Shown: in pieces, positions 1,749 to 19,697 of the stretch | Position numbering within the stretch: the first letter of the stretch is position 1 | Layout of the letters: each line of letters opens with the position of its first letter | Assembly: GCA_027307165.1 (NCBI GenBank) | Contig: DAHUXM010000021.1 | Span: 124,001 to 188,000 of the forward strand | Reading direction: 5' to 3' | Origin: Gemmatimonadota bacterium | GTDB taxonomy: Bacteria > Gemmatimonadota > Gemmatimonadetes > Gemmatimonadales > Gemmatimonadaceae | Length of the DNA: 64,000 bases | The notes under the pieces: model-generated | Databases searched by the model: none | Told to the model about the DNA's origin: nothing | Seen by the model: only the letters and a program-made list of their open reading frames with translations | Position numbers and translations under genes: made by a program

Positions 1749-1897
1749 ACTCTGTGAAGTAAAGCAGCCGCGCGCACACATCCTCGTACGCGTCGCGAGA
1801 GTCTAGCCTCTCTCTGCGCGGAGCGTTACATTCACGCGAATTTTCCGCTCTGCTCATACATAAATGCAGAGCGCCGACCCGGAGCCGGAGGGCATGG

Positions 1898-3409: not shown

Positions 3410-3443
3410 CAGCTCCCGCTTCAGTCCTCATCACCGACCGTTC

Positions 3444-5600
3444 ATGACCGTTTCGCAATCATCGCTCCTCTGGATCGTACTCGGCTGCAGCGCATTCGCA
3501 CTGCTCTTCGCGATCTGGCTTTCAAGATGGGTTCTGTCGCGCGGGCGCGGCAACGCCGACATGCAGAAAATTTCGGACGCCATTCAGCAGGGCGCCGAGG
3601 CGTATCTGGCGCGACAGTACAAGACAATCGCCGCACTCGCGCTGGTTGTTGCGATCGTGTTGGCGCTTGGTTACGGCGTGCTGAGGACAAGCATTCCGAC
3701 CGATCCGGTGAGCAGCTCGACGCTGCTCGCGATCTACATAACGTTGTCGTTCCTGCTTGGCGCCCTCAGCTCCGGCATTGCGGGATACATGGGGATGTGG
3801 ATCTCGATACGAGCCAACATCCGTGTCGCCGCGGCTGCTACCACGTCACTGAACGGTGCGCTTCAGACTGCGCTTCGGTCCGGTGCGGTGTCGGGACTCT
3901 TCACCGTTGCGATGAGTCTGGCCGGCGTGGGCGGGCTCTTTGCCGTGATCAACAACTTCGTGCCGCCGGGTCTCGCACCCGATGTGTGGGCACAGCGAAT
4001 CCCTTATCTCATCGTCGGCTACGGCTTCGGCGCCTCGTTCGTGGCACTGTTCGCGCAGCTGGGCGGTGGTATCTACACCAAGGCCGCCGACGTCGGCGCA
4101 GATCTGGTCGGCAAGGTTGAGGCCGGCATTCCTGAAGATGACCCGCGCAATCCGGCGGTGATCGCCGATCTCGTCGGTGACAACGTCGGCGATTGCGCCG
4201 GCCGTGGCGCCGACCTGTTCGAGAGCATCGCTGCGGAGAACATCGGCGCGATGATTCTTGGCGTGATTCTGTTCAGTCAGTTCGGCATCGCAGGTATCCT
4301 GTTCCCGCTCGTGATCGGTGGACTCGGGCTGCTGTGCTCGATCATCGGAGTGATGTCTGTTCGCACGCGCGAAGATGCGGATCCGATGCAGGCGCTGAAC
4401 CGCGGGTACTACGTGACGGCAGCGCTCGTGACGATCGTATTCTTCTTTGCGACTCGCTGGCTGCTCAATCCGATCTCCGCCCCGGATGCGTGGTGGCACT
4501 TCTTCATCTGCGGAATGATCGGCATCGCGACATCCATCGCGTTCGTCTTCATCACGCAGTACTACACCGAGTATCGCTACCGCCCGGTGCTTGGCATCGC
4601 GGAAGCGAGCCAGACGGGACCGGCGACGAACATCATAGCCGGCCTCGCAGTCGGAATGGAGTCGACGGTTCTTCCCGTGATCACGATCGCGATCGCGATC
4701 ATCGCGAGCTATCATCTCGGCGAGGCGAGTGGAGTTGCGCAGGCGGGCCTGTTCGGTACCGCCGTCGCTACAATGGGAATGCTCGGCACGGCGGGTTACA
4801 TCCTGGCAATGGATGTCTTCGGACCCATCACCGACAACGCTGGCGGCATCGTCGAGATGTCCAAGCAGCCGGAAGAGATCCGCAACATCACTGACCGGCT
4901 TGATTCTGTCGGCAATACCACCAAGGCGCTCACCAAGGGTTACGCGATCGGGTCCGCGGCACTGGCGGCGTTCCTGCTATTCTCCGCATATCTCGACGAA
5001 GTTCGCAACTATCGCGGCGGGGTTCCGATCAAGGTCGATCTGGCGCGTCCCGAAGTGTTCGTCGCCGGTCTGCTTGGCGCGATGCTTGTGTTCTGGTTCT
5101 CGTCGCTGGCGCTCACAGCAGTACGCAAGGCCGCATCGTCGGTGATCACGGAAGTGCGTCGCCAGTTCCGCGAGCGTCCGGGCATCATGCTCGGAACCGA
5201 AAGTCCGGATTACGGAACTGCTGTGGACATCGTGACAGTTGGCGCGTTGAAGGCGATGATCGCCCCCGGTGCACTTGTAGTGTTGTTCCCGATCGCTGTC
5301 GGACTGGTATTCAAGCAGTTCGGCGTTGGTGCGGAAGCAGTTGCAGCGTTCCTCATGATCGGTACTATCGCCGGAATTCTCATGGCGGGCTTCCTGAACA
5401 ACGGTGGCGGCGCGTGGGACAATGCGAAGAAGTACATCGAGACCGGTGCATACGGCGGCAAACGGTCAGACGCACATAAGGCGGCAGTCGTCGGCGACAC
5501 GGTCGGTGATCCGTTCAAGGACACGGCTGGCCCGTCGCTGCACGTGCTCATCAAGCTGTTGAGCACGATCACTCTGGTTCTTGCACCGCTGTTCATTTGA
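3444..5600 (+). CDS. hppA: Membrane-bound H+-translocating pyrophosphatase, K+-independent type
   Basis: 718 residues, about 16 membrane helices. The pyrophosphate-binding core DVGADLVGKVE, then DDPRNPAVIADLVGDNVGD and CAGRGADLFES, is intact, and the late acidic motif VGDTVGDPFKDTAGPS is present. The enzyme hydrolyses cytoplasmic PPi and pumps protons out. At the site that sets potassium dependence (GNTTKALTKG) Lys494 and Thr497 replace the two alanines of K+-dependent enzymes, so this should be the K+-independent proton-pumping class; that is inference from the known signature. Its stop TGA overlaps the ATG of a downstream permease, suggesting coupled translation of a proton pump with transporters that could use the gradient. 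Confidence 0.96.
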   Translation: MTVSQSSLLWIVLGCSAFALLFAIWLSRWVLSRGRGNADMQKISDAIQQGAEAYLARQYKTIAALALVVAIVLALGYGVLRTSIPTDPVSSSTLLAIYITLSFLLGALSSGIAGYMGMWISIRANIRVAAAATTSLNGALQTALRSGAVSGLFTVAMSLAGVGGLFAVINNFVPPGLAPDVWAQRIPYLIVGYGFGASFVALFAQLGGGIYTKAADVGADLVGKVEAGIPEDDPRNPAVIADLVGDNVGDCAGRGADLFESIAAENIGAMILGVILFSQFGIAGILFPLVIGGLGLLCSIIGVMSVRTREDADPMQALNRGYYVTAALVTIVFFFATRWLLNPISAPDAWWHFFICGMIGIATSIAFVFITQYYTEYRYRPVLGIAEASQTGPATNIIAGLAVGMESTVLPVITIAIAIIASYHLGEASGVAQAGLFGTAVATMGMLGTAGYILAMDVFGPITDNAGGIVEMSKQPEEIRNITDRLDSVGNTTKALTKGYAIGSAALAAFLLFSAYLDEVRNYRGGVPIKVDLARPEVFVAGLLGAMLVFWFSSLALTAVRKAASSVITEVRRQFRERPGIMLGTESPDYGTAVDIVTVGALKAMIAPGALVVLFPIAVGLVFKQFGVGAEAVAAFLMIGTIAGILMAGFLNNGGGAWDNAKKYIETGAYGGKRSDAHKAAVVGDTVGDPFKDTAGPSLHVLIKLLSTITLVLAPLFI

Positions 5601-7153
5601 TGCGGGGCCTGTTTGCACGCAAGTCCGTTGCGGACTTCGAGGCGGACGTCGTTTCACATGGCGGGCTAAAACGCACGCTTGGCAAGTGGCACCTGACTGC
5701 TCTCGGCGTCGGTGCCACGATTGGCGCGGGAATCTTTGTCACCACCGGAACCGCCATCGTTGGCGATCCGTTGCGTCCCGGCGCCGGACCTGCGATCATC
5801 TTTTCGTTCCTGCTGACCGCGGTCGCGTGCGGCTTTGCGGCGCTGTGCTACGCTGAGTTTGCCGCGATGGTACCGATCTCGGGTTCCGCTTATACGTACG
5901 CATATGCGGCGCTTGGTGAGTTCATCGCGTGGATAATCGGCTGGGATCTGGTCATAGAATACGCCGTCGGCAACATCGGCGTCGCGATCGGCTGGTCCGG
6001 CTACTTTCGAGAGTTGATCGCGCATTTTGGCTGGAGTCTCCCGTCGTGGCTGGCGACAGATTATCGATCCGCGCATTCCGCGTTCGTTCAGTTGGGCGCC
6101 GCGGGCAGCACGGTGGACGCGACTACGCGTTACATCGCATCAGCGTGGACATCCGCGCCTCACGTTCTCGGCCTTCCGCTGATCATCAATCTCCCCGCCG
6201 CGGCGGTTGTCGCGCTGATAACGATCGTTCTGGTGATCGGCATCAAGGAGTCGGCAGATGCCAACAACGCGATGGTGCTTCTCAAGGTCGGGATCATACT
6301 GTTCTTCATCGCGGTTGGGCTCTTCCTGATCCACCCTTCCAACTGGACCAATCCAGCGACCGGCGGCTTCGTGCCGAACGGCATGGCGGGCATCAGCGCG
6401 GCGGCTGCGATTATCTTCTTCAGCTACATCGGCTTCGACGCCGTATCCACGGCTGCGGAGGAGACGCGCAACCCGGGCAAGGACATGCCGTTCGGCATCA
6501 TCATGAGTCTCGTGGTGACGACGCTGCTCTACATCGCGATCTCGGTGGTGATGACTGGAATGGCACCGTGGCAGCAGCTGGGAACGGCCGAGCCGATGAT
6601 CACCGCGCTCAGGTACGCCGCAGGACCGCCGGCACTTCTCAACGCGTCGCGATTCATCGTCGCGCTTGGTGCCGTGATAGCGATGGGCAGCGTGCTCCTG
6701 GTCTTTCAGCTCGGGCAACCGCGAATCTTCTTCTCGATGGCACGCGACGGACTGCTTCCTCCGGTGCTCGCGAAAGTTCATCCACGTTACAAGACGCCGT
6801 ACGTCGGCACGATCATAACGGGGATCTTCGTAGCCGTCTTTGCCGCATTTGCGAACATCGCCGAAGTGGTCGATCTCACGAATATCGGGACGCTATTTGC
6901 GTTCGTGCTGGTGTCGGCGGGCGTGATCGTCCTTCGCCGAACCGATCCGGACCGACCGCGGCCGTTCCGCGTGCCGTGGGTTCCGTTCACGCCGTTGATC
7001 TCCATCGTGGCGTGCTTCTATCTCATGACGCAGTTGCCGGGTATCACCTGGATTCGCTTTATCATCTGGCTCGCTGTGGGCCTCGTACTCTACTTCACTT
7101 ACGGCTATGGCCACTCGACGCTGCGTAACCGCCGGGTGAACGGCCATGGATAG
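5600..7153 (+). CDS. APC-family (cationic amino acid transporter-like) permease
   Basis: 517 residues with 12 or more membrane helices. GVGATIGAGIFVTTG near the N-terminus is the APC first-helix binding motif, and the sequence IIFFSYIGFDAVSTAAEETRNP is characteristic of the CAT/YfnA branch of bacterial amino acid permeases. The ATG at 5600 overlaps the hppA stop (TGATG); a TTG one codon earlier is possible but less likely. It overlaps the next gene, a DAACS symporter, by 8 bases. The cluster therefore couples a PPi-driven proton pump with amino acid uptake systems. The exact substrate cannot be told. Confidence 0.9.
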   Translation: MRGLFARKSVADFEADVVSHGGLKRTLGKWHLTALGVGATIGAGIFVTTGTAIVGDPLRPGAGPAIIFSFLLTAVACGFAALCYAEFAAMVPISGSAYTYAYAALGEFIAWIIGWDLVIEYAVGNIGVAIGWSGYFRELIAHFGWSLPSWLATDYRSAHSAFVQLGAAGSTVDATTRYIASAWTSAPHVLGLPLIINLPAAAVVALITIVLVIGIKESADANNAMVLLKVGIILFFIAVGLFLIHPSNWTNPATGGFVPNGMAGISAAAAIIFFSYIGFDAVSTAAEETRNPGKDMPFGIIMSLVVTTLLYIAISVVMTGMAPWQQLGTAEPMITALRYAAGPPALLNASRFIVALGAVIAMGSVLLVFQLGQPRIFFSMARDGLLPPVLAKVHPRYKTPYVGTIITGIFVAVFAAFANIAEVVDLTNIGTLFAFVLVSAGVIVLRRTDPDRPRPFRVPWVPFTPLISIVACFYLMTQLPGITWIRFIIWLAVGLVLYFTYGYGHSTLRNRRVNGHG

Positions 7154-8423
7154 CGCAGGATCCGACAAGAGCTCGACGACGCGGCGCGGTCTGCGGCGCG
7201 TCTCGCTGACGCAGTGGATTGTCATCGCAGCAATAGTCGGGATCATCATCGGGATCGCGTTCCCGGCATTCGCGGTCAAGCTGGATCCGTTGTCGCAGAT
7301 CTTCCTGCGCATGATCAAGTCGCTGATCGTACCGCTGATCTTCGCCACGCTCGTGGTGGGCATTGCCGGTCACGGCGACGACATGGCCAAGGTGGGCCGC
7401 CTCGCGCTGAGGTCTCTGATCTATTTCGAGCTCGTGACGACCGGCGCGCTCGTTATCGGATTGACTGCAGTCAACGTCCTCAAGCCTGGAATCGGCGTGT
7501 CGCTGGGCGGCGCGACCGCGGCCACAGGGACCGAGCTTGCGTCGCACCCGGTTACATTCGGTGGTGTGCTGGAGCACATGGTCCCGCAGAGCTTTTTCGA
7601 AGCTGCTTACCATAACGAAGTTCTGCAGATCGTGTTCTTCGCGATTCTGTTCGCGGTGGCGCTCACGCGGCAGAAGGGCGAAAAGAAGAAGTTGATGCTG
7701 GACTTCTGCGCCGCGACGTCGGATTTGATGTTCAAGTTCACGGAGATCGTGATGGCGTATGCACCCATCGGTATCGGTGCAGCACTCGCCGTTACGGTCG
7801 GCCACAGCGGGATCGGTGTGCTGCTCGGCCTCGGCAAGCTCGTGGCGACGCTCTACGGCGCGCTGATCGTATTCGCGCTCGTCGTGCTGCTGCCGATAGC
7901 GGTTCTCACCCGCATTCCGCTCAAGGCATTCCTTCGCTCCGTACGGGCACCTGCGCTGATCGCTTTCTCGACTGCGTCCTCCGAAGCAGCGCTCCCGCTG
8001 GCGATGGAGAACATGGAAGCGATGGGCGTTCCGGCGCGCATCGTGGCGTTCGTGATGCCAACGGGATATTCGTTCAATCTCGACGGAAGCACGCTGTATC
8101 TGGCGGTCGCGTCGGTATTCGCCGCGCAGGCTGGCGGAATCCACATGACACTCGGTCAGCAGATCGTGATGATGCTGACGCTCATGCTCACGAGCAAGGG
8201 TGTCGCAGCCGTGCCGCGCGCATCTCTCGTGATTCTGTCCGGCGCGCTCACCATGTTTGGATTGCCGCTTCAGGCCGTCGCGGTGATACTCGGCGTCGAC
8301 GCATTCATGGACATGGCGCGGACGTCTGTGAATCTCATCGGCAATTGCCTCGCGAGCGCCGTGATGGCGCGATGGGAAGGGGAGCTCGCACCGGCAGCCA
8401 AGACGGACGCGGTGACGGCGTAG
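7146..8423 (+). CDS. Dicarboxylate/amino acid:cation symporter (DAACS family)
   Basis: 425 residues. Family marks are all visible: the serine-rich hairpin FSTASSEAALP (about residues 277-287), the MPTGYSFNLDGSTLY substrate/cation motif, TSKGVAAVPRAS, and the helix 8 signature DMARTSVNLIGNCLAS. These belong to the GltP/DctA fold, which imports glutamate, aspartate or C4-dicarboxylates with H+ or Na+. ATG at 7146 overlaps the end of the upstream permease by 8 bases. It closes the hppA-permease-symporter set; no terminator hairpin with a T-run follows. Confidence 0.93.
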   Translation: MDSAGSDKSSTTRRGLRRVSLTQWIVIAAIVGIIIGIAFPAFAVKLDPLSQIFLRMIKSLIVPLIFATLVVGIAGHGDDMAKVGRLALRSLIYFELVTTGALVIGLTAVNVLKPGIGVSLGGATAATGTELASHPVTFGGVLEHMVPQSFFEAAYHNEVLQIVFFAILFAVALTRQKGEKKKLMLDFCAATSDLMFKFTEIVMAYAPIGIGAALAVTVGHSGIGVLLGLGKLVATLYGALIVFALVVLLPIAVLTRIPLKAFLRSVRAPALIAFSTASSEAALPLAMENMEAMGVPARIVAFVMPTGYSFNLDGSTLYLAVASVFAAQAGGIHMTLGQQIVMMLTLMLTSKGVAAVPRASLVILSGALTMFGLPLQAVAVILGVDAFMDMARTSVNLIGNCLASAVMARWEGELAPAAKTDAVTA

Positions 8424-8555
8424 GCGCCGTTACCGCCGTCGCCGGTCGCACGAAACTGCTCGAGCGCCTCCAGCGCTGATACACCCGCGCCCCGGTTGAC
8501 ACCACAGGTTTGTGGTCATGTCCACTTGCCCACTCGGCGCCGAGGAGCGTATCGT

Positions 8556-9128
8556 ATGGCCATGGTCACCGCCGATACTGAACGGAAACATTGGACCGCA
8601 GCTGAGCTGCGGGCGATTCCGGACGATCGGAACCGCTACGAGATCATCGACGGTGATCTGTTCGTGACGCCATCGCCATCGTGGTCACACCAGATTTTGT
8701 CCCAGGAAATCTTCCAGCTCCTTCATCCCTACACGGCGACGCACCAGATCGGGCAGATACTCTGGGCACCCGCTGATATCGCCCTGGCCGACGACACAGT
8801 GGTTGAGCCCGACCTGTTTGTTGTTCCGCTGGTCGGCGGGAAGCTGTCTCACTCTTGGGAACAGGTGGGCCGGCTATTGCTCGTTATTGAGATTCTCTCC
8901 CCGAGTACAGCGCGAATGGACCGAACTGTGAAGCGGCGCAGGTATCAGCGCGAAGGCGTCCCGGAGTATTGGATCGTCGACGGAAATGCACGGTTGGTGG
9001 AGCGCTGGCGTCCAGCGGACAATCGGCCGGAGATCCTCACCGAGAATCTTCCATGGCAGCCGGATCCTGCGCTACCAGCGCTGGATATCGACTTGCCCAG
9101 ACTGTTTGCCGTCGTGTTCGGCGAATAA
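8556..9128 (+). CDS. Uma2 family (DUF820) putative restriction-endonuclease-like protein
   Basis: 190 residues. The PD-(D/E)xK-like core is readable: VVEPDLFVVP, then VIEILSPSTARMDRTVKRRRYQ with the conserved Glu and Lys, then GVPEYWIVD. Uma2/DUF820 proteins are single-domain nuclease-fold proteins, abundant in cyanobacteria and other environmental bacteria, with no settled role. The ATG at 8556 was chosen because AGGAG lies 8 bases upstream; an in-frame start at 8496 has no comparable site. It stands alone between the transporter cluster and convergent minus-strand genes. Confidence 0.85.
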   Translation: MAMVTADTERKHWTAAELRAIPDDRNRYEIIDGDLFVTPSPSWSHQILSQEIFQLLHPYTATHQIGQILWAPADIALADDTVVEPDLFVVPLVGGKLSHSWEQVGRLLLVIEILSPSTARMDRTVKRRRYQREGVPEYWIVDGNARLVERWRPADNRPEILTENLPWQPDPALPALDIDLPRLFAVVFGE

Positions 9129-9169
9129 CCGTTGAATGGAGGGCGGAGCGGCCGCTTTCGTGCACCGCG

Positions 9170-10177
9170 CTAATTCGTCAGTACGACCTTGCCTATGTGC
9201 GGCTCTTCCATACGTCTGTGTGCATCCGCCGCACGCGACAGCGGAAAGGTCGAATCGATGACTGGCAGGATCAGCCCGCGCTCGAGCAACGGCCAGATAC
9301 GCAGCATCAGCTCCTGGGCGATCACGGCCTTCTCCTGCGGCGGAAGGCGGCGCATCAGCGAGCCGGTCACCGTCAGTCGCTTCTGCATGATCGGTCTCAG
9401 ATCGAGTGTGACGCGACTGCCAGCCATGTACGAGATGTTGACCAGGCGACCTTCCATCGCAAGCGCTCGAAAATTGCGCTCGACATATTCACCGCCGACC
9501 ATGTCGAGTATGACATCGACACCGCGGCCTCCGCTGCGCTCGAGCGCGACTGCGGCGAAGTCGGTTTCGTGGTAGTCGATCGCGACTTCCGCGCCGAGTC
9601 GGACACACACGCCGCACTTTTCAGCTGAACCGGCGGTCGCGAATACTTTCGCGCCGATCGCGCGCGCCATCTGGATGGCGATCACGCCGATGCCGCTCGT
9701 GCCGCCGTGCACCAGCAACGTTTCCCCCGCCGACAGCCGGCAACGCTGGAACACGTTGTACCATACCGTGAACAGTGCCTCGGGAAGCGCGGCCGCCTGC
9801 ACCATCGAGAAACCTTCGGGTATCGGCAGGCATTGCATCGACGGTGCAACGGTTTCGGTGGCGTAGCCGCCGCCGTCCACCAGTGCGCAAACCTCCTCTC
9901 CGATGTTCCACACCAGCGCAGCGCGCTCACCAGCAGCAGACACGTAGCCTGCGACCTCGAGTCCGAGTATCGGCGATGCGGTGCTCGGCACCGCGTACTT
10001 GCCCGCGCGCTGGAGCAGATCGGCGTGATTGATGCCGGCTGCTTCTACGTGGATGCGCACGTCATCAGGGCCGAGCGCCGGAACGGGTCCCTCGGTCAGA
10101 TGCATCTCATCCGGGCCGCCGGGCCGGAGTACTTCGATGTGCCGGATCGATCCCGGTCTGGAGAAAGGACTCGACAT
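9170..10177 (-). CDS. NADPH:quinone oxidoreductase (zinc-independent medium-chain dehydrogenase)
   Basis: 335 residues. An N-terminal GroES-like domain (about residues 1-130) with VRIHVEAAGINHADLLQRAGKY is followed by a Rossmann domain with HGGTSGIGVIAIQMAR. The pattern matches the PIG3/QOR branch of the MDR superfamily. The catalytic zinc-site cysteine and histidine of alcohol dehydrogenases are absent, as expected for quinone reductases. It would reduce quinones or enones with NADPH in the cytoplasm. It lies 9 bases after the sugar kinase gene on the same strand and is probably the last gene of that operon. Confidence 0.9.
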   Translation of the reverse strand: MSSPFSRPGSIRHIEVLRPGGPDEMHLTEGPVPALGPDDVRIHVEAAGINHADLLQRAGKYAVPSTASPILGLEVAGYVSAAGERAALVWNIGEEVCALVDGGGYATETVAPSMQCLPIPEGFSMVQAAALPEALFTVWYNVFQRCRLSAGETLLVHGGTSGIGVIAIQMARAIGAKVFATAGSAEKCGVCVRLGAEVAIDYHETDFAAVALERSGGRGVDVILDMVGGEYVERNFRALAMEGRLVNISYMAGSRVTLDLRPIMQKRLTVTGSLMRRLPPQEKAVIAQELMLRIWPLLERGLILPVIDSTFPLSRAADAHRRMEEPHIGKVVLTN

Positions 10178-10186
10178 CGCGCAGCG

Positions 10187-11128
10187 TCAGGCTATGGCTG
10201 AAGCAGTTTGGAGCGCGAGCTTGATCGCGCCGCGTGCACCGTCAACCTCTTCCACATGAACAGTCGCGCCGGGAACAGCGGCGCGGAGCCTGCGCTCCAG
10301 ACGCTTCCGGAGCAGCGATCCTTTGTGAAGCAAGCCGCCGGTCAGGGCCAGATCGAAAGCTGCCCGATCGTCGACAAACAGTTTCCGCGCGAGCGCGCGC
10401 ACGTGCAGCACGAGCTCTTCCACCGCCATGTCCACGATGCTGTTCGCACGCACGTCGTCCTGCATCGCCATTGCGAGCACCGATGGCGCAAGCGCCGCCA
10501 ACGCCTCTCTATCAGCGGCAAGCGCCCATGGAATGAGCTGTTCGACCTCGTTCACCTGCGCGGCGGTGAGTACGGCGCCGGTGAGCGTCGTCTCCGGTTC
10601 ACGACCGTCGTGCGACGCAGCAACGACACTGAGTGCACGGCGACCGATCCAGGCGCCACTTCCCTCATCGCCGAATGTGAAACCCCAGCCGCCGCAGCGA
10701 GCCAGCATCCCGGCAGGGCTGCGCCCAAACGCAATCGATCCCGTTCCGGAGATCAGAATCACACCGGAGCGATCGCCGAATGCATCCGCGAGCGCGATGC
10801 TCGCGTCGGTCTCCACGACGACTTCGTCGGCAATCTCCATGCGCGAGAGTGCATCCTGCAACGCGATCTGCTCGCTCTCGCGGCCAGTGCCTGCAACGCC
10901 CGCATACAGCACGCGCGGCACGACGTCGGTCAGCGCTGCACTCTCGAGCGCCGCGACGACAACCGCCGCAATCGTATTTGCGCAGGCGTCGGCGTTACCG
11001 GGCGCCATTGCAGCGCCGGGCCCAACGCTCTCGGCGATCTGGTCGCCAGAGAGCGATGCGATGATGACGCGCGTCTTGCTTCCACCGGCGTCGATCCCTA
11101 TTACGATTTCAGATTCCGAATCACTCAT
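10187..11128 (-). CDS. BadF/BadG/BcrA/BcrD-type ATPase, likely amino-sugar kinase (NagK/MurK-like)
   Basis: 313 residues of the actin-like ATPase fold: phosphate-1 loop IGIDAGGSKTR near residue 10, phosphate-2 loop ILISGTGSIAFGR near 130, and CGGWGFTFGDEGSGAWIGR. This family covers N-acetylglucosamine kinases and the MurNAc/GlcNAc kinase MurK as well as enzyme activators; the latter carry Fe-S cysteines that are not obvious here. The start overlaps the end of the sodium symporter gene by 4 bases. With the symporter and the NamZ-type muramidase 2 kb away, phosphorylation of a cell-wall amino sugar is a reasonable inference. Confidence 0.82.
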   Translation of the reverse strand: MSDSESEIVIGIDAGGSKTRVIIASLSGDQIAESVGPGAAMAPGNADACANTIAAVVVAALESAALTDVVPRVLYAGVAGTGRESEQIALQDALSRMEIADEVVVETDASIALADAFGDRSGVILISGTGSIAFGRSPAGMLARCGGWGFTFGDEGSGAWIGRRALSVVAASHDGREPETTLTGAVLTAAQVNEVEQLIPWALAADREALAALAPSVLAMAMQDDVRANSIVDMAVEELVLHVRALARKLFVDDRAAFDLALTGGLLHKGSLLRKRLERRLRAAVPGATVHVEEVDGARGAIKLALQTASAIA

Positions 11129-12639
11129 TCTGCGTCATCAACCCTGATTCGCGCGCTTCCGTGCGGGAAGAGCGACGTGAATACTCCGACACCTACTGTT
11201 ACCGCCGTCCCGATCAAAACGTACCACGGCCAGGCAATCGAGCCGATTGGCGCGAGTGCCGGCCACAGCGCGGAGAGCTGCTTCGCGAACACGACCACGC
11301 TCATCACGAGAATGCCTACGGCCATTCCAGTAATGGCGTCGCGCTGCTGCGCGCGGGCCCACATGATGCCGAGTGCAAAACCACCGAGCAGCGCGCCGTA
11401 CGTGAACGACGCAATCGAGAGCGCCACCACGACCACTGGCGTACCCTGCTGCTTGTACAGTAGCGCTATGATGAGCAGCAACAAGCCCCAGGCCAGACTG
11501 ACCAGCTTCGCCACCCTGAGTGTGCGCGGATCGTTGGCGTCACGATGGGTGAGCGGCAGGTAGATGTCGTGCACGGTCGCAGCGGCCAGCGAATTGATCG
11601 CGCCGGAGTGAGCGCTCATCGTTGCCGCCAGAATCGCCGCCACCAGGAGGCCGATCAGACCCGTCGGCATAGCCGTCACTATGAACGTCGGGAAGATCTT
11701 GTCGGGCGAGTCGAAGGTGTGAGCACCGAAGTACGCCCACAGTCCCGCGCCTATCATGAGGAAGAGGGCGAACTGAAAGAAGACGGCGAAGCCGCTGCCT
11801 ATGAGCGCGCGCCGCGCATCACGCAGCGACGATGCAGTCATGAGCCGTTGCACGATCACCTGATCTGCGCCGTGCGACGCCATCGACAGGAATGCACCGC
11901 CGAGCACGCCCGCCATCAGGGTCTGCGGCTTGTCGAAACCGGTGTAGAGATCGATTGCCTGGAGCTTTCCGGCCGCCGCGGCAGAGTGGATGATATGGCC
12001 CCAACCACCCGCAACTCCGCGTCCGATGATCACCACGGCCGCCGCCGCGCCGAGGAGATACACGCAGGTCTGGATGACGTCCGTCCAGACGACAGCGCGC
12101 ACGCCGCCAAAGTACGCGTAGATCAAAGTGAGAGCGCCGAGTACCAGAATCGCGATTGGCATTACCACTGTCGCTGGAAGAATCGGTGACAGGATCAGCG
12201 CGATTGGAATCGCAGTTGCGAAGACGCGGACCGAATCCGCGAAGGCGCGCGTGAACATGAAGACCACCGAAGCGAATCGACGCGTCGACACGCCGAAGCG
12301 GTTCTCGAGCAACGCGTACGCTGTTACGAGATTGCCGCCGTAGTAGCGTGGCAAGAGTACGTATGCGACAACTATTCGCCCGACGATGTATCCCGCGGCG
12401 ATCTGGAGAAACCCCAGGTTGCCGATGTAGGCCAGGCCGGGAATCGAGATGACGGTGAGTGCGCTGGTCTCGGTCGCCACGATCGAGAAGAGAACTGCCC
12501 ACCACGGAATCGTGTGGTCGGCGACAAAGTAGTCGCGTGTGTTCTTCTGATTGCGTCCCAGATAGACGCCCAGCAGCGTCGTTCCGACCAGGTACGCAAC
12601 GAGTACAATAAGGTCGAGGGCGGTGAATGAGTTCTTCAT
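11125..12639 (-). CDS. Sodium:solute symporter (SSS family)
   Basis: 504 residues, 13-14 predicted membrane helices. Conserved SSS features include GRNQKNTRDYFVADHTIPWWAV near residue 30, ATETSALTVISIPG, and the internal YFGGVRAVVWTDVIQ motif. It imports a solute with Na+ across the inner membrane; the coupled kinase suggests a sugar or amino sugar. Its start codon is enclosed in a perfect 16-bp hairpin (see the regulatory entry), which is unusual. It follows the Fe-S carrier gene after 31 bases and overlaps the kinase gene by 4. Confidence 0.9.
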   Translation of the reverse strand: MKNSFTALDLIVLVAYLVGTTLLGVYLGRNQKNTRDYFVADHTIPWWAVLFSIVATETSALTVISIPGLAYIGNLGFLQIAAGYIVGRIVVAYVLLPRYYGGNLVTAYALLENRFGVSTRRFASVVFMFTRAFADSVRVFATAIPIALILSPILPATVVMPIAILVLGALTLIYAYFGGVRAVVWTDVIQTCVYLLGAAAAVVIIGRGVAGGWGHIIHSAAAAGKLQAIDLYTGFDKPQTLMAGVLGGAFLSMASHGADQVIVQRLMTASSLRDARRALIGSGFAVFFQFALFLMIGAGLWAYFGAHTFDSPDKIFPTFIVTAMPTGLIGLLVAAILAATMSAHSGAINSLAAATVHDIYLPLTHRDANDPRTLRVAKLVSLAWGLLLLIIALLYKQQGTPVVVVALSIASFTYGALLGGFALGIMWARAQQRDAITGMAVGILVMSVVVFAKQLSALWPALAPIGSIAWPWYVLIGTAVTVGVGVFTSLFPHGSARIRVDDAE

Positions 12640-12651
12640 TCACCGCCCTCG
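12615..12651 (-). promoter_or_regulatory. Perfect 16-bp hairpin enclosing the symporter start codon
   Basis: Read on the minus strand, CGAGGGCGGTGAATGA, then loop AGAAC, then TCATTCACCGCCCTCG. The two arms are perfectly complementary. The left arm holds the GAGG ribosome-binding core and the ATG, and the right arm is codons 4-9 of the symporter. Such a stem would block ribosome loading unless opened, for example by translation of the upstream Fe-S carrier gene, heat or a factor. There is no T-run, so it is not a standard terminator. Confidence 0.6.
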
Positions 12652-12670
12652 GTAGTGCACGGAAACTGGA

Positions 12671-13027
12671 CTAAGCCGAGAAGGATGATCCGCAGCCGCA
12701 GCCGCCCGTCGCGTTCGGGTTCTTGAAGGTGAAGCCCGATCCCTGCATGGACGTCACGTAATCGATCGTCACGTTGTTGACATACTGCGCGGAGAACGGA
12801 TCGACGAAGACGCGATAGCCGTCCTGCGACAGGATCAGGTCGTCGTCGGCAGGCTTGTCCTCGATCAGCAGCGAGTACTTGAAGCCGCTGCAGCCGCCGG
12901 GCTGGATGCTGACGCGAAGGCCGCCTTCGTCCGGCGAGACCTTCTCGATCTCCATGAATTTCTGCACCTCGACGCCTGCTGATGGAGTCAGGGTCAGGTT
13001 GATTTCTGGTTGGCTGGATACCGCCAT
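12671..13027 (-). CDS. A-type iron-sulfur cluster carrier (IscA/ErpA/HesB family)
   Basis: 118 residues with the three invariant cysteines, Cys46 (in GGCSGF) and Cys110/Cys112 (in GGCGCG), at the standard spacing. It receives and delivers Fe-S clusters to target proteins in the cytoplasm. The start at 13027 was chosen over a longer upstream frame because AAAGGAG lies 7-8 bases before this ATG and the protein then has family length. It heads the minus-strand run with the symporter, kinase and oxidoreductase, and is divergent from the NamZ-type gene across a 180-base gap. ErpA or IscA cannot be decided from sequence alone. Confidence 0.95.
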   Translation of the reverse strand: MAVSSQPEINLTLTPSAGVEVQKFMEIEKVSPDEGGLRVSIQPGGCSGFKYSLLIEDKPADDDLILSQDGYRVFVDPFSAQYVNNVTIDYVTSMQGSGFTFKNPNATGGCGCGSSFSA

Positions 13028-13207
13028 GGCTCGCTCCTTTGGTGTAGCTGAAATATAAACGGAAAATACGACTTTCCAGCGCCCCGTTACACCCACGGTG
13101 GATGGCCGGTTCCGGGGACGGACCAATTATTTACAGCCGCGGTAATGGCAGGAAGGCTCGCCCTTTGCGATTATATCCTCACCCCACAACCTTCGGAATC
13201 CCACGTG

Positions 13208-14506
13208 ATGCCGCGACCACTCGTTCGACCGCTGTTCGTGCTTCTGCTCTTCACCGCGGGATGCTCAGTCGTGTACCACAAGCTGGACGATCCGACTGGC
13301 CTCCCCGAAGCGAACGTGCGGCCCGGCATATCGGTGCTGCTGAGTGATAGTATCGCCCTCGTCGCCGGCAAACGGGTCGGGTTGCTGACGAACGCCAGCG
13401 GGGTAGATGAGCACGGCAGAAGCGACGTCAAGCTGCTAATGACGGATAAGCGCGCCACGAGATCCAACGTCCATCTCGTCGAGCTGTTTTCGCCCGAGCA
13501 CGGGTTCGCGACTACGCTGGACAGGACCGGTATCGCGTCCGGAATCGATTCGGCGACCGGGCTGGTGGTCATCTCCCTGTACACCAACCAGACCATTCCG
13601 CCCCCAGATACGACTCTTCGCGCGATCGACGTTTTCGTGGTCGACCTACCGGATGTCGGCTCGCGCACCTGGACATACGACGGCGCCGTGGTTTACGCGA
13701 TGCGCGCGGCTGCGCGGGCGCACAAGCCGATCGTGGTACTGGACCGCCCCAACCCGATCACCGGATCGCTCGTCGAAGGGCCGATGCTCGACTCGGCGCT
13801 GTCGAATGCGGATGACCCTGCGCCGGGCAAGCCCGGACTCGCGTGGGCTCTGTATCCGATTCCTCTCCGGCACGGTATGACGATGGGCGAGCTTGCGCGG
13901 TTCTACAACGCTGAGCTCAAGATCGGAGCTGACTTGCACGTTGTGCCCGCAGCACGCTGGAGCCGTGAAGTCTGGTTCGACCGGACCGGCCTTCCGTTCG
14001 TCGCTCCGTCGCCAAGCCTGCAGTCGTTTCCAGCCATCATGCTCTACCCGGGGCTGGTCCCGTTCGAGGCGACCAACCTGTCAGTGGGTCGCGGAACGAG
14101 TGAGGCGTTCCGGCGGATCGGAGCGCCGTGGATGGATCCCAAGCGTGTGATCGAGCTCCTAAAGGACAGCCCCATTCGCGGCGTGCGATTCTCCCCCGTC
14201 GACTATACTCCGGTTTCTCCGGGCGACAACAAGTATGCCGGCCAGCTTGTGCACGGGATAAGGATCGAGGTGACGGAGCGCAGCCAGCTGCAGACGAGCC
14301 GCCTGGCCGCCGGTCTGCTCGCGGCGATCCACAAAGCCTATCCGACCGATTTCAGGATCGATTCGACGCGGTTCGATCGACTGTTCGGATCGCCGTCTGC
14401 GAGACGGGCAATCCTGAGCGGGGCCGACCCCGACGCTGTTATCGATTCGACCTACGGCCCGGCGTATGCGTTTCGTCAGCGCGTATCGAAATATCTCATC
14501 TACTAA
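13208..14506 (+). CDS. NamZ-type exo-beta-N-acetylmuramidase lipoprotein (DUF1343, GH171)
   Basis: 432 residues. A hydrophobic signal ends in FTAGC with the lipidated cysteine at residue 19; the protein should sit on the periplasmic face of a membrane. The body has the DUF1343 signatures: GLLTNASG, LFSPEHGF, DVGSRTWTYDG, LDRPNPITG, LRHGMTMGELARFYN and EATNLSVGRGTSEAF. This family was shown to release MurNAc from peptidoglycan fragment ends (NamZ). ATG 13208 was chosen so that the lipobox sits correctly; an in-frame start 63 bases upstream would place charged residues before the signal. It is divergent from the operon with a sodium symporter and a NagK/MurK-like kinase, which fits muropeptide recovery. 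Confidence 0.88.
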   Translation: MPRPLVRPLFVLLLFTAGCSVVYHKLDDPTGLPEANVRPGISVLLSDSIALVAGKRVGLLTNASGVDEHGRSDVKLLMTDKRATRSNVHLVELFSPEHGFATTLDRTGIASGIDSATGLVVISLYTNQTIPPPDTTLRAIDVFVVDLPDVGSRTWTYDGAVVYAMRAAARAHKPIVVLDRPNPITGSLVEGPMLDSALSNADDPAPGKPGLAWALYPIPLRHGMTMGELARFYNAELKIGADLHVVPAARWSREVWFDRTGLPFVAPSPSLQSFPAIMLYPGLVPFEATNLSVGRGTSEAFRRIGAPWMDPKRVIELLKDSPIRGVRFSPVDYTPVSPGDNKYAGQLVHGIRIEVTERSQLQTSRLAAGLLAAIHKAYPTDFRIDSTRFDRLFGSPSARRAILSGADPDAVIDSTYGPAYAFRQRVSKYLIY

Positions 14507-14554
14507 CAACATAGTAGTCGAGATGCAGGAATCGACCATTTTCCCGGAGCATAA

Positions 14555-14887
14555 ATGAAGAAACTGATAGTCATGCTGGGCCTCGCGGTGGCAGCGACGG
14601 CCTGCGGCCCGAGACAGGTCGAGGTCAAGACGGGACCGCAGCCGGTGAGCGAGGTGACGCTCAAGGTGACCAACAACCTCTCTCAGGCGGCCAACATCTA
14701 CGTCGTGAGCAGCGGCAGCGACATCTTTCTCAAGCAGGTTGGGGCGAACAGCACAGAGACCATGAACGTGCCGGGTATCTCCGCTGGCGCCACGGTAGGA
14801 TTGAAGGCGACACCGATCGACGGCTCCCGCTCCTACACGCGCGACAACGTAACGCTGTCGGGCTTGTACCAATGGCAGATACCGTAG
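14555..14887 (+). CDS. Small putative lipoprotein, unknown function
   Basis: 110 residues. The N-terminus MKKLIVMLGLAVAATAC is a lipoprotein signal with Cys17 as the lipidation site. The mature part of about 90 residues has alternating polar/hydrophobic beta-like stretches (VTLKVTNNLSQAANIYVVSS and IFLKQVGANSTETMNVPGIS), suggesting a small beta-sandwich on the periplasmic side. A good start context (CCGGAG 9 bases before ATG) and GC-rich codon use support expression. I do not recognise the family. It sits between the NamZ-type gene and the CDP-alcohol phosphatidyltransferase. Confidence 0.7.
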   Translation: MKKLIVMLGLAVAATACGPRQVEVKTGPQPVSEVTLKVTNNLSQAANIYVVSSGSDIFLKQVGANSTETMNVPGISAGATVGLKATPIDGSRSYTRDNVTLSGLYQWQIP

Positions 14888-14954
14888 CCATTGCAGCACG
14901 GTTCGCTGTCAAACACCTAGCCCGATAGCCTCCAGCGGGCTACCTTCCACGCCG

Positions 14955-15587
14955 ATGAAGGCGATCTGGGAGGCGATAAAAGCTGGTTATTTGCGGGTCA
15001 TCGAACCCGCCGCTGATTTTCTGGTCCGGCGGCGGGTAAATCCGAACGCAATAACGACAGTCGGGACGATCTGCACCCTTACCGGCGCGGTGGTGTACGC
15101 CACCGGCCACATCATGACAGCCGGCTGGATCATCGCGCTTACGGCGCTGTTCGATGTGCTGGACGGAACCGTGGCACGCCGTACCGGCCAGTCGAGCGTT
15201 TTTGGTGCCTTCTACGACTCGACGCTGGATCGGGTGGCCGACGGCGGCGTCATGGCGGGACTCGCGGTGTTTTACGCCTCGTCCGCGCTGTACCACAACA
15301 TCTACATGCTCGTGGTGTGCCTGCTCGGGATCATCGGAACCTTCCTCGTTTCGTACACTCGCGCCCGTGCGGCGGCCCTCGGAATCGATGCCAAGGTCGG
15401 GGTGATGCAGCGCCCGGAGCGCGTAGTGTTATTATCCGTACCACAGGCATTTTTCGGCCTGGCGCTGCATGGCTGGGTCCTCATGGCGATCGTTGTCCTG
15501 TTGACGGTTACAGCATGGATAACGGCAGTCCAGCGCATCAGCTTCGTCTATCGCGCAACATCCAAGAAACCACTGGTGAATGTCTAA
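14955..15587 (+). CDS. CDP-alcohol phosphatidyltransferase, candidate phosphatidylinositol(-phosphate) synthase
   Basis: 210 residues, about six membrane helices. The full catalytic signature is present: Asp67, Asp70-Gly71, Ala74-Arg75, Gly84, Asp88 and Asp92 (DVLDGTVARR then GAFYDSTLD). The family moves a phosphatidyl group from CDP-diacylglycerol to an alcohol at the inner membrane. Its last 8 bases overlap the inositol-3-phosphate synthase gene, so inositol phosphate or inositol is the likely acceptor, as in known bacterial inositol-lipid loci. The acceptor is inferred from context; PgsA-type glycerophosphate transfer is the alternative. Confidence 0.85.
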   Translation: MKAIWEAIKAGYLRVIEPAADFLVRRRVNPNAITTVGTICTLTGAVVYATGHIMTAGWIIALTALFDVLDGTVARRTGQSSVFGAFYDSTLDRVADGGVMAGLAVFYASSALYHNIYMLVVCLLGIIGTFLVSYTRARAAALGIDAKVGVMQRPERVVLLSVPQAFFGLALHGWVLMAIVVLLTVTAWITAVQRISFVYRATSKKPLVNV

Positions 15588-16902
15588 CAGCTCAGCTGTA
15601 CCCAAAATCGCGCCGGCTTCAGGCAAGCTCGGTATCCTCACGCCCGGCCTCGGCGCCGTGGCCACGACGTTCATTGCCGGAGTCGAGAGCATTCGCCGAG
15701 GGCTCGCCAAGCCGATCGGCTCGATCACTCAGACGGCGACGATTCGCCTCGGAAAGCGGACCGACAACCGCGCTCCGCTCATCAAGGACTTCGTTCCGCT
15801 CGCGAATCTCAATGATATCGTGTTCGGCGCATGGGATCCGATTCCGGATGACGCACTGACGGCCGTTCGCAAGGCGGGGGTTCTCGAAGAGAAGGACGTT
15901 GCTCCGATCGCGGACTTTCTGGCGGCGATCAAGCCGATGCCTGCGGTATTCGACAATCATTACGTGACGCGCATCCACGGTACCAACGTCAAGACGGGCA
16001 AGACGAAGCGTGATCTCGCAGAGCAGCTGCGTCAGGACATTCGTGATTTCAAGGCCAAGAACAAGCTCGACCGGGTGGTGATCGTCTGGTGTGCTTCGAC
16101 CGAGATATTCATCAAGGCGGGTCCGCAGCACGCGACGATCGAGCAGTTCGAGCGTGCCATGGACAACAACGACGAAGCAATTGCTCCGTCGATGCTGTAC
16201 GCGTATGCAGCGATCATGGAAAACGTGCCGTTCGCGAACGGCGCGCCGAATCTTTCCGCCGACGTTCCGGCGCTGCTCCAGCTCGCGCAGCAGCGTGGTG
16301 TTCCGGTTTCGGGCAAGGATTTCAAGACAGGCCAGACGTGGATGAAGACCGTCATCGCGCCAGGACTCAAGGCTCGCATGCTGGGACTTGCCGGATGGTA
16401 TTCGACCAACATCCTCGGCAACCGCGACGGAGAAGTGCTCGACGATCCACAGTCGTTCAAGACCAAGGAAGAGTCCAAGCTGTCGGTGCTGCACACGATC
16501 CTTCAGCCTGAGAAGTATCCGGATCTGTACAAGGATTTCTCGCACGTCGTTCGCATCAACTACTATCCACCGCGCGGCGACAACAAGGAAGGCTGGGACA
16601 ACATCGACATCTTCGGATGGATGAATTATCCCATGCAGATCAAGATCAACTTCCTCTGCCGCGACTCCATTCTCGCCGCGCCTCTCGTGCTGGATGTCGC
16701 GTTGTTCAGCGACTTCGCTCAGCGGGCAGGAATGAAGGGAATCCAGGAGTGGCTGTCGTTCTTCTACAAGAGCCCGATGACGGCGCCTGGATTGCAGCCC
16801 GAGCACGATCTCTTCATCCAGCAGACCAAGATGAAGAACACGCTCAGGCACCTCATGGGCGAGGATCAGATAACACACCTCGGACTCGAGTACTACGCAT
16901 AA
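15580..16902 (+). CDS. Inositol-3-phosphate synthase (MIPS)
   Basis: 440 residues. A Rossmann NAD-binding domain starts near GILTPGLGAVATTFIAGVE, and the conserved core includes GNRDGEVLDDPQSFKTKEESK around residues 284-304 and the NYPMQIKINFLCRDSILAAP segment typical of MIPS tetramerisation/catalytic regions. It converts glucose 6-phosphate to 1L-myo-inositol 1-phosphate, the first step to inositol lipids and other inositol compounds. ATG at 15580 lies inside the end of the phosphatidyltransferase gene (8-base overlap), implying coupled translation. Its stop overlaps the next start (TAATG). Confidence 0.94.
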   Translation: MSNSSAVPKIAPASGKLGILTPGLGAVATTFIAGVESIRRGLAKPIGSITQTATIRLGKRTDNRAPLIKDFVPLANLNDIVFGAWDPIPDDALTAVRKAGVLEEKDVAPIADFLAAIKPMPAVFDNHYVTRIHGTNVKTGKTKRDLAEQLRQDIRDFKAKNKLDRVVIVWCASTEIFIKAGPQHATIEQFERAMDNNDEAIAPSMLYAYAAIMENVPFANGAPNLSADVPALLQLAQQRGVPVSGKDFKTGQTWMKTVIAPGLKARMLGLAGWYSTNILGNRDGEVLDDPQSFKTKEESKLSVLHTILQPEKYPDLYKDFSHVVRINYYPPRGDNKEGWDNIDIFGWMNYPMQIKINFLCRDSILAAPLVLDVALFSDFAQRAGMKGIQEWLSFFYKSPMTAPGLQPEHDLFIQQTKMKNTLRHLMGEDQITHLGLEYYA

Positions 16903-17360
16903 TGAAGACAGCGACGCTGATGTGGACGTCACTGCTCGCGGCCGCGTCCGTTTCTCTGGCATCGTGCGGTGGCAACAACAACCGCGCGGGCGAGATTCGG
17001 CAGTGGACCGACGACATGGCTTTCCGCATCAGCGTCGTGCCAGCTCCGCCGATCTCGGAGGAGATGACGGTGTTCAAGGTCGTCGTGTCGGACAAGGAGA
17101 GCGGCCAGCCGATCCAGGCGGGGCAGGGACGCATCTTCGCGACGAGCCAGGAGCACGCGCAGACGGGCGACGGCCTTGCAAAGGGAGCTGAAGTCGGCAC
17201 GTACTACGCGCACGTTCGCTTTCCGGTATCAGGCGACTGGGCCGTCGGCCTGCAGTTCCGGCGGGATTCAACAAGCAAGCTCGAGCGCACGCAGGACTGG
17301 CAGCAGCAGGTTCTGCCAGCTCCACCGCTCGGCCAGAGCACAGATACGACCAAACGCTGA
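16902..17360 (+). CDS. Putative lipoprotein with FixH/YtkA-like domain
   Basis: 152 residues. The signal MKTATLMWTSLLAAASVSLASC has Cys22 at the lipobox. The mature domain contains PPISEEMTVFKVVVSDKESGQPIQ and EVGTYYAHVRFPVSGDWAVGLQF, the pattern of YtkA/FixH-like beta-sandwich domains (strands followed by YxAxVxFPxxGxW). Such domains occur in copper and cytochrome-oxidase contexts, but no metal-binding His/Met cluster is visible here. ATG overlaps the MIPS stop by one base. It is likely a periplasmic accessory lipoprotein; its function is unknown. Confidence 0.72.
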   Translation: MKTATLMWTSLLAAASVSLASCGGNNNRAGEIRQWTDDMAFRISVVPAPPISEEMTVFKVVVSDKESGQPIQAGQGRIFATSQEHAQTGDGLAKGAEVGTYYAHVRFPVSGDWAVGLQFRRDSTSKLERTQDWQQQVLPAPPLGQSTDTTKR

Positions 17361-17363
17361 CAA

Positions 17364-17657
17364 ATGCGCCATTTTTTCAGATCTCATCTGAAGCCCGATC
17401 AGGTCCTCGCAATTGCGGACACGTTCTTTCCGACCATCCAGGAAAACCGAACGGCATCGGCGAACCGTACTCGTGATTTTTCCGGTCCACTCGGCGCGCT
17501 CAAACTGAGCGTGAGGATGGAGGGTGGTCACTACACGTTCGTGCAGATCGACACGGACCAGACTGGCGAGAGCCGACTGGACCGCAACGCCAAGAAGTTC
17601 TTCGTCGAGCTGCATCGGGCCGAAGATCCGGCGTACAAGCTTACTGCTTCATACTAG
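17364..17657 (+). CDS. Hypothetical protein, 97 residues
   Basis: A compact, charged, apparently soluble protein with no signal peptide or membrane segment. An N-terminal helical part (HLKPDQVLAIADTFFPTIQ) is followed by a likely beta-hairpin region (GALKLSVRMEGGHYTFVQIDTDQTG) and a basic C-terminus. It lies 3 bases after the FixH-like lipoprotein gene and 8 bases before the E1alpha gene, so it is probably in the same transcript. I do not recognise the family. Confidence 0.65.
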   Translation: MRHFFRSHLKPDQVLAIADTFFPTIQENRTASANRTRDFSGPLGALKLSVRMEGGHYTFVQIDTDQTGESRLDRNAKKFFVELHRAEDPAYKLTASY

Positions 17658-17665
17658 GCGGCGTC

Positions 17666-18727
17666 ATGATGTTGACGCGCGAGCAGAAGCTCGAGCTGTA
17701 CTATTACATGCGGCTCACGCGCTCGCTCGAAGAGCGCCTCGTAAATCTCTATCGGCAGACCAAGGTGATCGGAGGTCTGTTCCGCTCACTGGGACAGGAA
17801 GCCGACGCCGTCGGTGCGGCGTACGCACTCGACAAGTCGAAGGGCGATATTCTCTCGCCGCTGATTCGCAACCTGGGCGCGATGCTCGTGCGCGGCGCGG
17901 AGCCGACCGAGGTCATCAAGCAGTACATGGCCAAGGGCGATTCGCCGACGAAGGGCAAGGAGCTCAACATCCACTTCGGCGGCATCGAGCGCGGATTCGT
18001 CGGACAGATATCGCACCTGGGTGACATGGTGCCGGTGATGGCTGGCGTCACGCTCGCTGCGAAAATGCGCGGCGAGGATCGCGTAGGTCTCGTCTTCGTT
18101 GGAGACGGCGCCACGTCGACGGGTGCATTCCACGAGGGAATCAACTTTGCCGCGGTGCAGCGCTGTCCGCTCGTCGTGATCGTCGAGAACAACGGTTACG
18201 CATACTCGACTCCCGTCGCGAAGCAAACCGCCGCCAAGTCGTTCGTCGACAAGGCGATCGGTTATGGAATTCCGGGCGAGCAGGCGGATGGGAACGACGT
18301 GCTTGCAGTGTACGACGTCACCAGACGTGCAGTCGATCGCGCGCGGCGTGGTGAAGGCGTGACGCTCATCGAGCTCATCACATACCGCAGAAAGGGCCAT
18401 GCGGAGCACGACAACCAATCGTACGTCCCGGAGGGCGAGATCGATCGCTGGGCCGCGGAGAACGATCCGATCGACCGCTTCGTGAAAGTGCTCCGCGCAG
18501 AAAAGGTGAAAGCATCGGAGCTCACTGCAATCGACGATCGCGTCAGGACGGAGATAGACACTGCGACTGACGTCGCCGACGCTTCTCCGATGCCGGAGCC
18601 CGGCGAGGCGCTCCGAGGTGTGTACGCGAATCAGGCGAACGTGCCGCCGTTGTGGTTTCGGGAAGATGTGAGCAACGCGGTGGACAGCCACGAGCGCGCG
18701 TCAGGGTGGGGGACGTACGATGTCTGA
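17666..18727 (+). CDS. 2-oxoacid (pyruvate-type) dehydrogenase E1 component, alpha subunit
   Basis: 353 residues. The thiamine diphosphate/Mg motif starts with GDGATS at residue 146 and ends with Asn175-Asn176 (VENNGYAYST). GLFRSLGQEADAVG and YRRKGHAEHDNQSY match E1alpha of pyruvate or branched-chain 2-oxoacid dehydrogenases. With E1beta and E2 it decarboxylates a 2-oxoacid and reductively acylates lipoyl groups. A second ATG one codon later is an equally possible start. The gene overlaps the E1beta gene by 8 bases. Pyruvate is the most likely substrate but branched-chain acids or acetoin cannot be excluded. Confidence 0.9.
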   Translation: MMLTREQKLELYYYMRLTRSLEERLVNLYRQTKVIGGLFRSLGQEADAVGAAYALDKSKGDILSPLIRNLGAMLVRGAEPTEVIKQYMAKGDSPTKGKELNIHFGGIERGFVGQISHLGDMVPVMAGVTLAAKMRGEDRVGLVFVGDGATSTGAFHEGINFAAVQRCPLVVIVENNGYAYSTPVAKQTAAKSFVDKAIGYGIPGEQADGNDVLAVYDVTRRAVDRARRGEGVTLIELITYRRKGHAEHDNQSYVPEGEIDRWAAENDPIDRFVKVLRAEKVKASELTAIDDRVRTEIDTATDVADASPMPEPGEALRGVYANQANVPPLWFREDVSNAVDSHERASGWGTYDV

Positions 18728-19697
18728 GGTCACCTACCTCGAAGGGATTCGGCAGGCGCTCTTCGAAGAGATGGAGCGCGATCCCAACGTCTTCTGTCTC
18801 GGTGAAGACATCGGCGCGTATGGCGGCGCATTCAAGGTTACCGAGGGATTGCAGGCGAAGTTCGGCGCATCGCGCGTGATCGACACGCCGATCTCCGAGA
18901 TCGCCATCGTCGGCGCAGCTGCGGGCGCAGCGCATATGGGAATGCGCCCTGTGTGCGAGATGCAATTCATGGATTTCGTGTCGAATGCGTACGACATGCT
19001 CACGAACTACGTCGCCACCGCGCGCTACCGGATTGGCCTCGGATGTCCGATGGTCGTGCGCGGTCCGAGCGGGGGCTACGTGCGCGGCGGGCCGTTTCAT
19101 TCACAGAATCCAGAGGCTGCATTCTTTCACACGCCGGGGCTCAAGATCGTGAGTCCGGCGAGCGCCGCCGATGCAAAGGGACTGATGAAGGCTGCAATCC
19201 GCGACGACGATTGCGTGCTCTTCTTCGAACACAAGTATCTGTACCGGCGCATCAAGGAAGAGATGCCGGCCGGCGATCATGTCGTGCCGATCGGGAAGGC
19301 CCGCACAGCCCGGGAAGGAACGGACGTTTCGATAATTACCTATTCGGCGACGCTCTGGAAGGCGCTGGAAGCGGCCGAAATCATGCAGGCGGAAGACGGT
19401 GTGTCAGTCGAAGTGATCGACCTTCGGACCCTTTTGCCGATGGACGATGCGGCCATTGTCGAGACGGTCAGAAAGACCAACCGGGTTCTGATAGTGCATG
19501 AGGATACCCGGACGGGCGGTATCGCTGGCGAGATTACGGCGCGGATCAACGAGACGTGCTTCGAGTGGCTCGACGCCCCCGTGCTCAGGGTCACTGCTGC
19601 CGACGTGCCCTTGCCGTATTCTCCGCCGCTCGAGGATTACGTGCTGCCGCAGACGTCGGACATAGTACGCGCGCTCCGGCGCATTGTAGCTTATTGA
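18720..19697 (+). CDS. 2-oxoacid (pyruvate-type) dehydrogenase E1 component, beta subunit
   Basis: 325 residues, the normal length. Conserved segments include VFCLGEDIGAYGGAFKVTEGL, DTPISEIAIVGAAAGAA (with the Glu that activates thiamine diphosphate), GPSGGYVRGGPFHSQ and the C-terminal VHEDTRTGGIAGEI with PLPYSPPLEDYVLP. It forms the heterotetramer with the upstream E1alpha. Its stop overlaps the ATG of a small membrane-protein gene (TGATG) that sits where E2 would normally follow. Confidence 0.93.
   Translation: MSEVTYLEGIRQALFEEMERDPNVFCLGEDIGAYGGAFKVTEGLQAKFGASRVIDTPISEIAIVGAAAGAAHMGMRPVCEMQFMDFVSNAYDMLTNYVATARYRIGLGCPMVVRGPSGGYVRGGPFHSQNPEAAFFHTPGLKIVSPASAADAKGLMKAAIRDDDCVLFFEHKYLYRRIKEEMPAGDHVVPIGKARTAREGTDVSIITYSATLWKALEAAEIMQAEDGVSVEVIDLRTLLPMDDAAIVETVRKTNRVLIVHEDTRTGGIAGEITARINETCFEWLDAPVLRVTAADVPLPYSPPLEDYVLPQTSDIVRALRRIVAY

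Follow-up and report, generated by a model that had tools for sequence, protein, structure and literature searches.

The locus analysed here raises the question of why a long and perfect RNA hairpin should enclose the start codon of a membrane transporter gene. It lies in a 64,000-nucleotide stretch of Gemmatimonadota DNA (the window), where a first-pass annotation had described a perfect 16-bp hairpin with a 5-base loop at the start of a sodium:solute symporter gene, had placed the ribosome-binding core and the ATG in the left arm and codons 4–9 in the right arm, and had noted an iron–sulphur carrier gene ending 31 bases earlier. All of these positions were confirmed: 16 of 16 base pairs form, the SD-like GAGGG and the ATG lie inside the 5′ arm with six bases between them, and the erpA-like stop codon is 31 bases from the ATG and 19 nt from the stem (Table 1). 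We propose that the hairpin and the T-rich tract behind it are probably an intrinsic terminator of the erpA-like gene that has merged with the symporter’s translation start, where it would limit read-through and mask the start codon on read-through mRNA.

Table 1. Genes and hairpin elements at the erpA–symporter junction, in window coordinates.
Feature	Position	Strand	Remarks
PIG3-type quinone oxidoreductase	9170..10177	-	Likely third gene of the same transcript, judging from position
BadF/NagK-like sugar kinase	10187..11128	-	Start overlaps symporter stop by 4 nt
Sodium:solute symporter (SSS family)	11125..12639	-	Start sits in the hairpin
T-rich tract 3′ of the stem, ACCTTATTG	12606..12614	-	Codons D-L-I-V; weak in the window, strong in relatives (GATTTTTTTGT)
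Hairpin (16 pairs, 5-nt loop)	12615..12651	-	
Hairpin 3′ arm, TCATTCACCGCCCTCG	12615..12630	-	Symporter codons 4–9 (S-F-T-A-L and first base of D)
Hairpin loop, AGAAC	12631..12635	-	Relatives have loops of 3 to about 14 nt
Hairpin 5′ arm, CGAGGGCGGTGAATGA	12636..12651	-	Contains SD-like GAGGG and symporter ATG
Symporter ATG	12637..12639	-	
SD-like GAGGG	12646..12650	-	
erpA-like stop codon	12671..12673	-	
ErpA/IscA-type iron–sulphur carrier, upstream gene	12671..13033	-	Stop codon 19 nt before the stem

The start-codon hairpin is genuine and no product of chance. Taken alone, it folds with −30.6 kcal/mol, and the surrounding 141-nt RNA reaches −58.3 kcal/mol compared to −43.1 ± 3.9 kcal/mol in dinucleotide shuffles (z = −3.9; none of the 200 shuffles reached this value), a stable fold in which both the SD and the start codon are paired. 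When the leader and protein were held fixed and codons were drawn from the gene’s own usage, only about 0.4% of the draws reached the observed fold stability. A 400-kb portion of this genome has only five places with a perfect Watson–Crick stem of at least 16 bp and a loop of at most 10 nt. An alternative, downstream start codon was ruled out: the next in-frame ATG, GTG or TTG is codon 54, within the membrane region, and the annotated symporter start is therefore sound.

We mapped the start of the symporter gene at 150 loci, all of the same family, and carried out the comparison of this junction in related genomes that the first-pass annotation had suggested. The hairpin is present at the start codon in 20 of 20 loci of three genera, g1 (the window’s genus, 4 loci), g5 (12 loci) and g7 (4 loci), and is missing in the other 130 homologues, one isolated look-alike in g23 aside. 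Between the three genera, the symporter proteins of carriers are about 70–75% identical. The left-arm motif CGAGGG(C/T)GGTG is retained in all 20 loci, and the right-arm segment TTCACCGCCCTCGA is identical in all of them. The right-arm codons ACC and GCC are retained although ACG and GCG are the preferred Thr and Ala codons in g1 and g5; in g7, ACC is used equally with ACG, and GCG exceeds GCC. Where the arms do vary, the loop-proximal pairs differ (GGTGAATGA/TCATTCACC in g1 versus GGTGAAAT/ATTTCACC in most g5 loci), and a C-to-T change in the left arm of three g5 loci yields a U–G pair. Across 11 distinct rows, 93% of the cells are paired compared to 37–49% in slid registers, and eight cells, at two loop-proximal pairs, show two-sided changes; 10 of the 16 pairs are invariant and thus uninformative in either direction. 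The conserved pairing, G–U wobbles and two-sided changes support the earlier claim that the pairing is under selection, including its coding arm (codons 4–9).

Codon-level maintenance also extends past the stem, into a tract that the first-pass annotation had not noted. In most carriers, a T-run directly follows the right arm (for example, GATTTTTTTGTC, encoding Asp-Phe-Phe-Val), amounting to 6.55 T per 10 nt after the stem against a comparison value of 3.05. At the two codons after Asp, the frequencies of third-position T are 0.90 and 0.85 in the 20 hairpin loci versus 0.03 and 0.04 in the 130 others (uncorrected for relatedness), and at codons further on in carriers they are 0–0.35. Phe at these two tract codons is TTT in 19 of 19 cases (11/11 and 8/8), Phe in the stem is TTC in 20 of 20, and the gene-wide TTT fraction is 0.08–0.24. 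Likewise, Leu at the first tract codon is CTT in six of eight cases, versus 0.04–0.15 gene-wide. The codon choices in the right arm and in the T-tract therefore indicate that stem and tract are maintained at the nucleotide level inside the coding sequence. By its sequence, the tract would correspond to the U-tract of an intrinsic terminator, for which a pure translational switch would have no need.

Hairpin and tract together rank first in a terminator scan of window bases 1–20000, combining a stable, GC-rich, short-loop stem with a T-rich tract directly after it and a same-strand stop codon shortly before it. A stem followed by such a tract is the hallmark of intrinsic terminators. The tract is strong in g5 and g7 and weak in g1 (4–5 T in 10), where, taken alone, it does not differ significantly from synonymous codon draws (P-values of 0.25–0.70); even so, the tract Leu of all four g1 loci is encoded by CTT, a rare codon that accounts for 7% of the Leu residues in these genes. 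Because the g1 tract is weak, the element of the window’s species could terminate only leakily, or could serve chiefly as a 3′-end hairpin that also masks the start codon.

The distribution of the hairpin follows the upstream gene. An erpA gene lies upstream at 64 loci: the start-codon hairpin is found at 20 of them, an ordinary, separate terminator-like hairpin in the intergenic region at 26 (genera g18, g24, g25, g26, g31 and g32) and neither at 18 (g2, where the genes overlap, g10, g20, g22 and one g24 locus). At none of these 64 junctions does the start-codon hairpin occur together with a separate intergenic one. Among the 86 loci with another upstream gene, a comparable start hairpin was found in only one (L053). 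Because the hairpin occurs only with erpA upstream, this look-alike aside, the element is associated with the erpA 3′ end rather than with the symporter as such. An element devoted to masking a ribosome-binding site should be kept with its regulated gene whatever lies upstream; here, it is found at 0–1 of the 86 non-erpA loci and is absent from 44 of the 64 erpA loci. The L053 look-alike (genome G102, genus g23), spanning −17 to +15 of the symporter start, is an independent 14-pair hairpin with a different upstream gene and no clear T-tract.

The distance between the erpA-like stop codon and the stem is also typical of 3′-end hairpins in this genome. In 400 kb of one contig of the window’s genome, we counted 23 strong hairpins, including the symporter hairpin, that begin at most 60 nt after a same-strand stop codon (crude gene calls). 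Their median start is 19 nt after the stop, equal to that of the symporter hairpin, and the T-tracts of many are weak. One perfect hairpin (17 bp, 5-nt loop; 63318–63356, plus strand) lies 8 nt past the stop of an ORF whose tail, we assume, resembles a single-strand binding protein, and has nearly no T-tract; this case suggests that 3′-end hairpins without U-runs are usual in the window’s genome. A perfect 15-bp palindrome without spacer (27189–27218, plus strand) begins about 11 nt past a predicted stop codon and likewise has a poor T-tract. Outside the window, a 16-pair hairpin (G000:C25:196733–196768) lies 6 nt after a stop and overlaps another predicted start codon, according to a crude gene call.

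A covariance model run over 23 genomes yielded no further confident copies of the element in the 20 carrier genomes. One strong extra match, in the g5 genome G189, was discarded as the same junction at a broken contig end: the assembly breaks at the hairpin and places the junction at two contig ends (L189, at the end of contig C111, and L106), with another sodium symporter-like ORF upstream of erpA. A single-clade origin of the hairpin carriers was rejected in the symporter tree (p-AU = 0.009, four changes). Consequently, the history of the hairpin is not simple: the junction may have stayed in place through exchanges of the symporter bodies, or else the tree is misleading. The symporter bodies of three g5 loci (L041, L042 and L044) cluster apart from the other carriers and have the same hairpin and erpA junction, for which a gene exchange with the junction retained is possible.

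In the proposed mechanism, a polymerase leaving erpA would first transcribe the left arm with its SD and AUG, followed by the right arm (codons 4–9) and finally the U-tract (codons 9–12). We infer that closure of the hairpin at the U-tract would halt part of the polymerases in vivo; the erpA mRNA would thereby gain its 3′ end, and the symporter–kinase operon would be transcribed less. On RNA that is read through, the same stem would hide the SD and AUG and suppress symporter translation. Both effects would be prevented if a 30S subunit bound the start while the right arm had yet to emerge; initiation and termination would therefore exclude each other. The codon-kept T-tract, together with a stop-codon distance matching that of the genome’s 3′-end hairpins, supports the view that the element is an intrinsic terminator first, with start masking as a built-in consequence.

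Since the SD and AUG form the terminator’s own 5′ arm, the hairpin could go further and act as a ribosome-gated attenuator that needs neither leader peptide nor ligand. Whether the polymerase reads on would be decided by a 30S subunit binding the start as it is made, and transcription of the operon would depend on its own translation initiation; we regard this extension as tentative and on balance rather unlikely. Complete termination would leave the symporter in need of a promoter of its own. A consensus scan revealed no sigma-70-like site near the 19-nt gap or the stem, in a phylum whose promoter types are poorly covered by such scans, and inspection by eye found no conserved −10-like motif among the leaders inside or just before the 5′ arm.

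The 4-nt overlap between the symporter and kinase genes implies that the hairpin should affect the kinase as well. Judging from its position, the quinone oxidoreductase gene is likely the third gene on the same transcript. A divergent NamZ (exo-N-acetylmuramidase) gene is located beyond erpA, and the cluster of NamZ, symporter and NagK-like kinase (9170–14506) surrounds a housekeeping iron–sulphur gene. The cluster likely functions in amino-sugar recovery from cell walls, and its neighbour genes suggest a role of the symporter–kinase pair in amino-sugar uptake. The closest named relatives with the symporter are metagenome-assembled Gemmatimonadetes, isolates fen_1247 and palsa_1236 (88% protein identity); carriers are soil and peat Gemmatimonadota from three genera of one family.

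Several alternative mechanisms would account for parts of these observations. The first-pass annotation had read the hairpin as a translational switch that evolved to hide the SD and AUG, is opened by upstream translation, temperature or a ligand, and has no role in termination. In its favour, the SD and AUG are inside a stem whose pairing is conserved with wobbles and two-sided changes, and sequences within ORFs that mask ribosome-binding sites are already known (PMC4999090). The same reading leaves unexplained the T-tract of rare codons just 3′ of the stem, the distance match to 3′-end hairpins and the tie to the erpA upstream context. An Rfam scan of the window returned tRNA only and no riboswitch, and the stem follows the erpA stop codon too closely, at 19 nt, to leave room for a conserved upstream aptamer. 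At about −31 kcal/mol, the stem would make an implausible thermometer. A ribosome halted at the erpA stop codon would, given its footprint, end short of the stem, and simple coupling to erpA translation is therefore not an obvious opener. We consequently retain the masking of the start and the selection on pairing, and consider it unlikely that the hairpin is mainly a switch awaiting temperature or a ligand.

A more doubtful alternative is that the hairpin shields the erpA mRNA from 3′ exonucleases, after processing or downstream Rho-dependent termination, and causes little intrinsic termination. Many 3′-end hairpins of this genome do have poor T-tracts, as does the window’s element, but the strong, codon-kept T-tract of g5 and g7 would be superfluous for protection. 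It is very improbable that the hairpin is a merely inherited mutational relic, in which a template switch copied codons 4–9 into the leader. Template switching can yield perfect long arms with a short loop and could be the hairpin’s origin, but the element has been kept across three genera while the remaining protein diverged, its loop-proximal pairs change on both sides and its T-tract is retained. It is hardly credible that the element is a DNA operator to which a dimeric repressor binds at the symporter start, as the perfect inverted repeat and strongly conserved arms might suggest, when the inter-arm spacer varies by several nucleotides, some arms pair only as G–U, the T-tract is on one side only and the 20 carrier genomes hold no further confident site.

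If the terminator–start fusion is correct, about 50 nt would serve as the terminator of one gene, the start site of the next and the coding sequence of a membrane protein, with a transcription signal carried by synonymous codon choice. Terminator predictors confined to intergenic DNA would miss such cases, and codon changes at gene starts could alter operon transcription. At this junction, the competition between 30S binding and terminator folding could also be measured in a simple system that involves no ligand.

Our literature search, which mostly covered non-subscription journals, turned up no terminator that has the SD and AUG of the following gene in its stem and draws its second arm and U-tract from codons; the individual parts have known counterparts. 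Intercistronic intrinsic terminators set the ratio between neighbouring genes in ABC importers of cellulolytic Clostridia (PMC9045158), and the arsC–arsD attenuator of Bacillus sp. CDB3 is a terminator between genes (PMC4562236). Like these intra-operon terminators, the symporter hairpin has a GC-rich stem and a T-tract after an upstream gene, with partial read-through expected; unlike the ars attenuator, which lies between genes, it has the SD and AUG within its stem, and codons make up its 3′ arm and T-tract. In the Sinorhizobium meliloti metA SAM-II leader, a terminator is located between AUG1 and AUG2 and the downstream AUG is used (PMC9373788), which is similar in placing a terminator right at a start region, whereas the symporter has no aptamer and its AUG is in the stem rather than downstream of it. 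The fHbp thermosensor of N. meningitidis carries an anti-RBS sequence within its ORF (PMC4999090). There, too, the ribosome-binding site is complementary to codons close to the start, but fHbp responds to temperature, while the symporter stem, which is very long and very stable, has a codon-kept T-tract behind it. In phage T4 genes of the I-TevI type, a stable stem masks the ribosome-binding site on read-through transcripts from upstream, and late-promoter transcripts are too short to form it (PMC2988022). The symporter would share such a stem on read-through transcripts from its upstream gene; it differs in that no stem-escaping promoter was seen, and a terminator role is not described for T4. 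A promoter giving transcripts without the 5′ arm, as in T4, would let dedicated symporter transcripts escape the hairpin. Terminators that tune neighbouring genes and ORF sequences that mask ribosome-binding sites are thus known separately, and the symporter hairpin appears to combine both.
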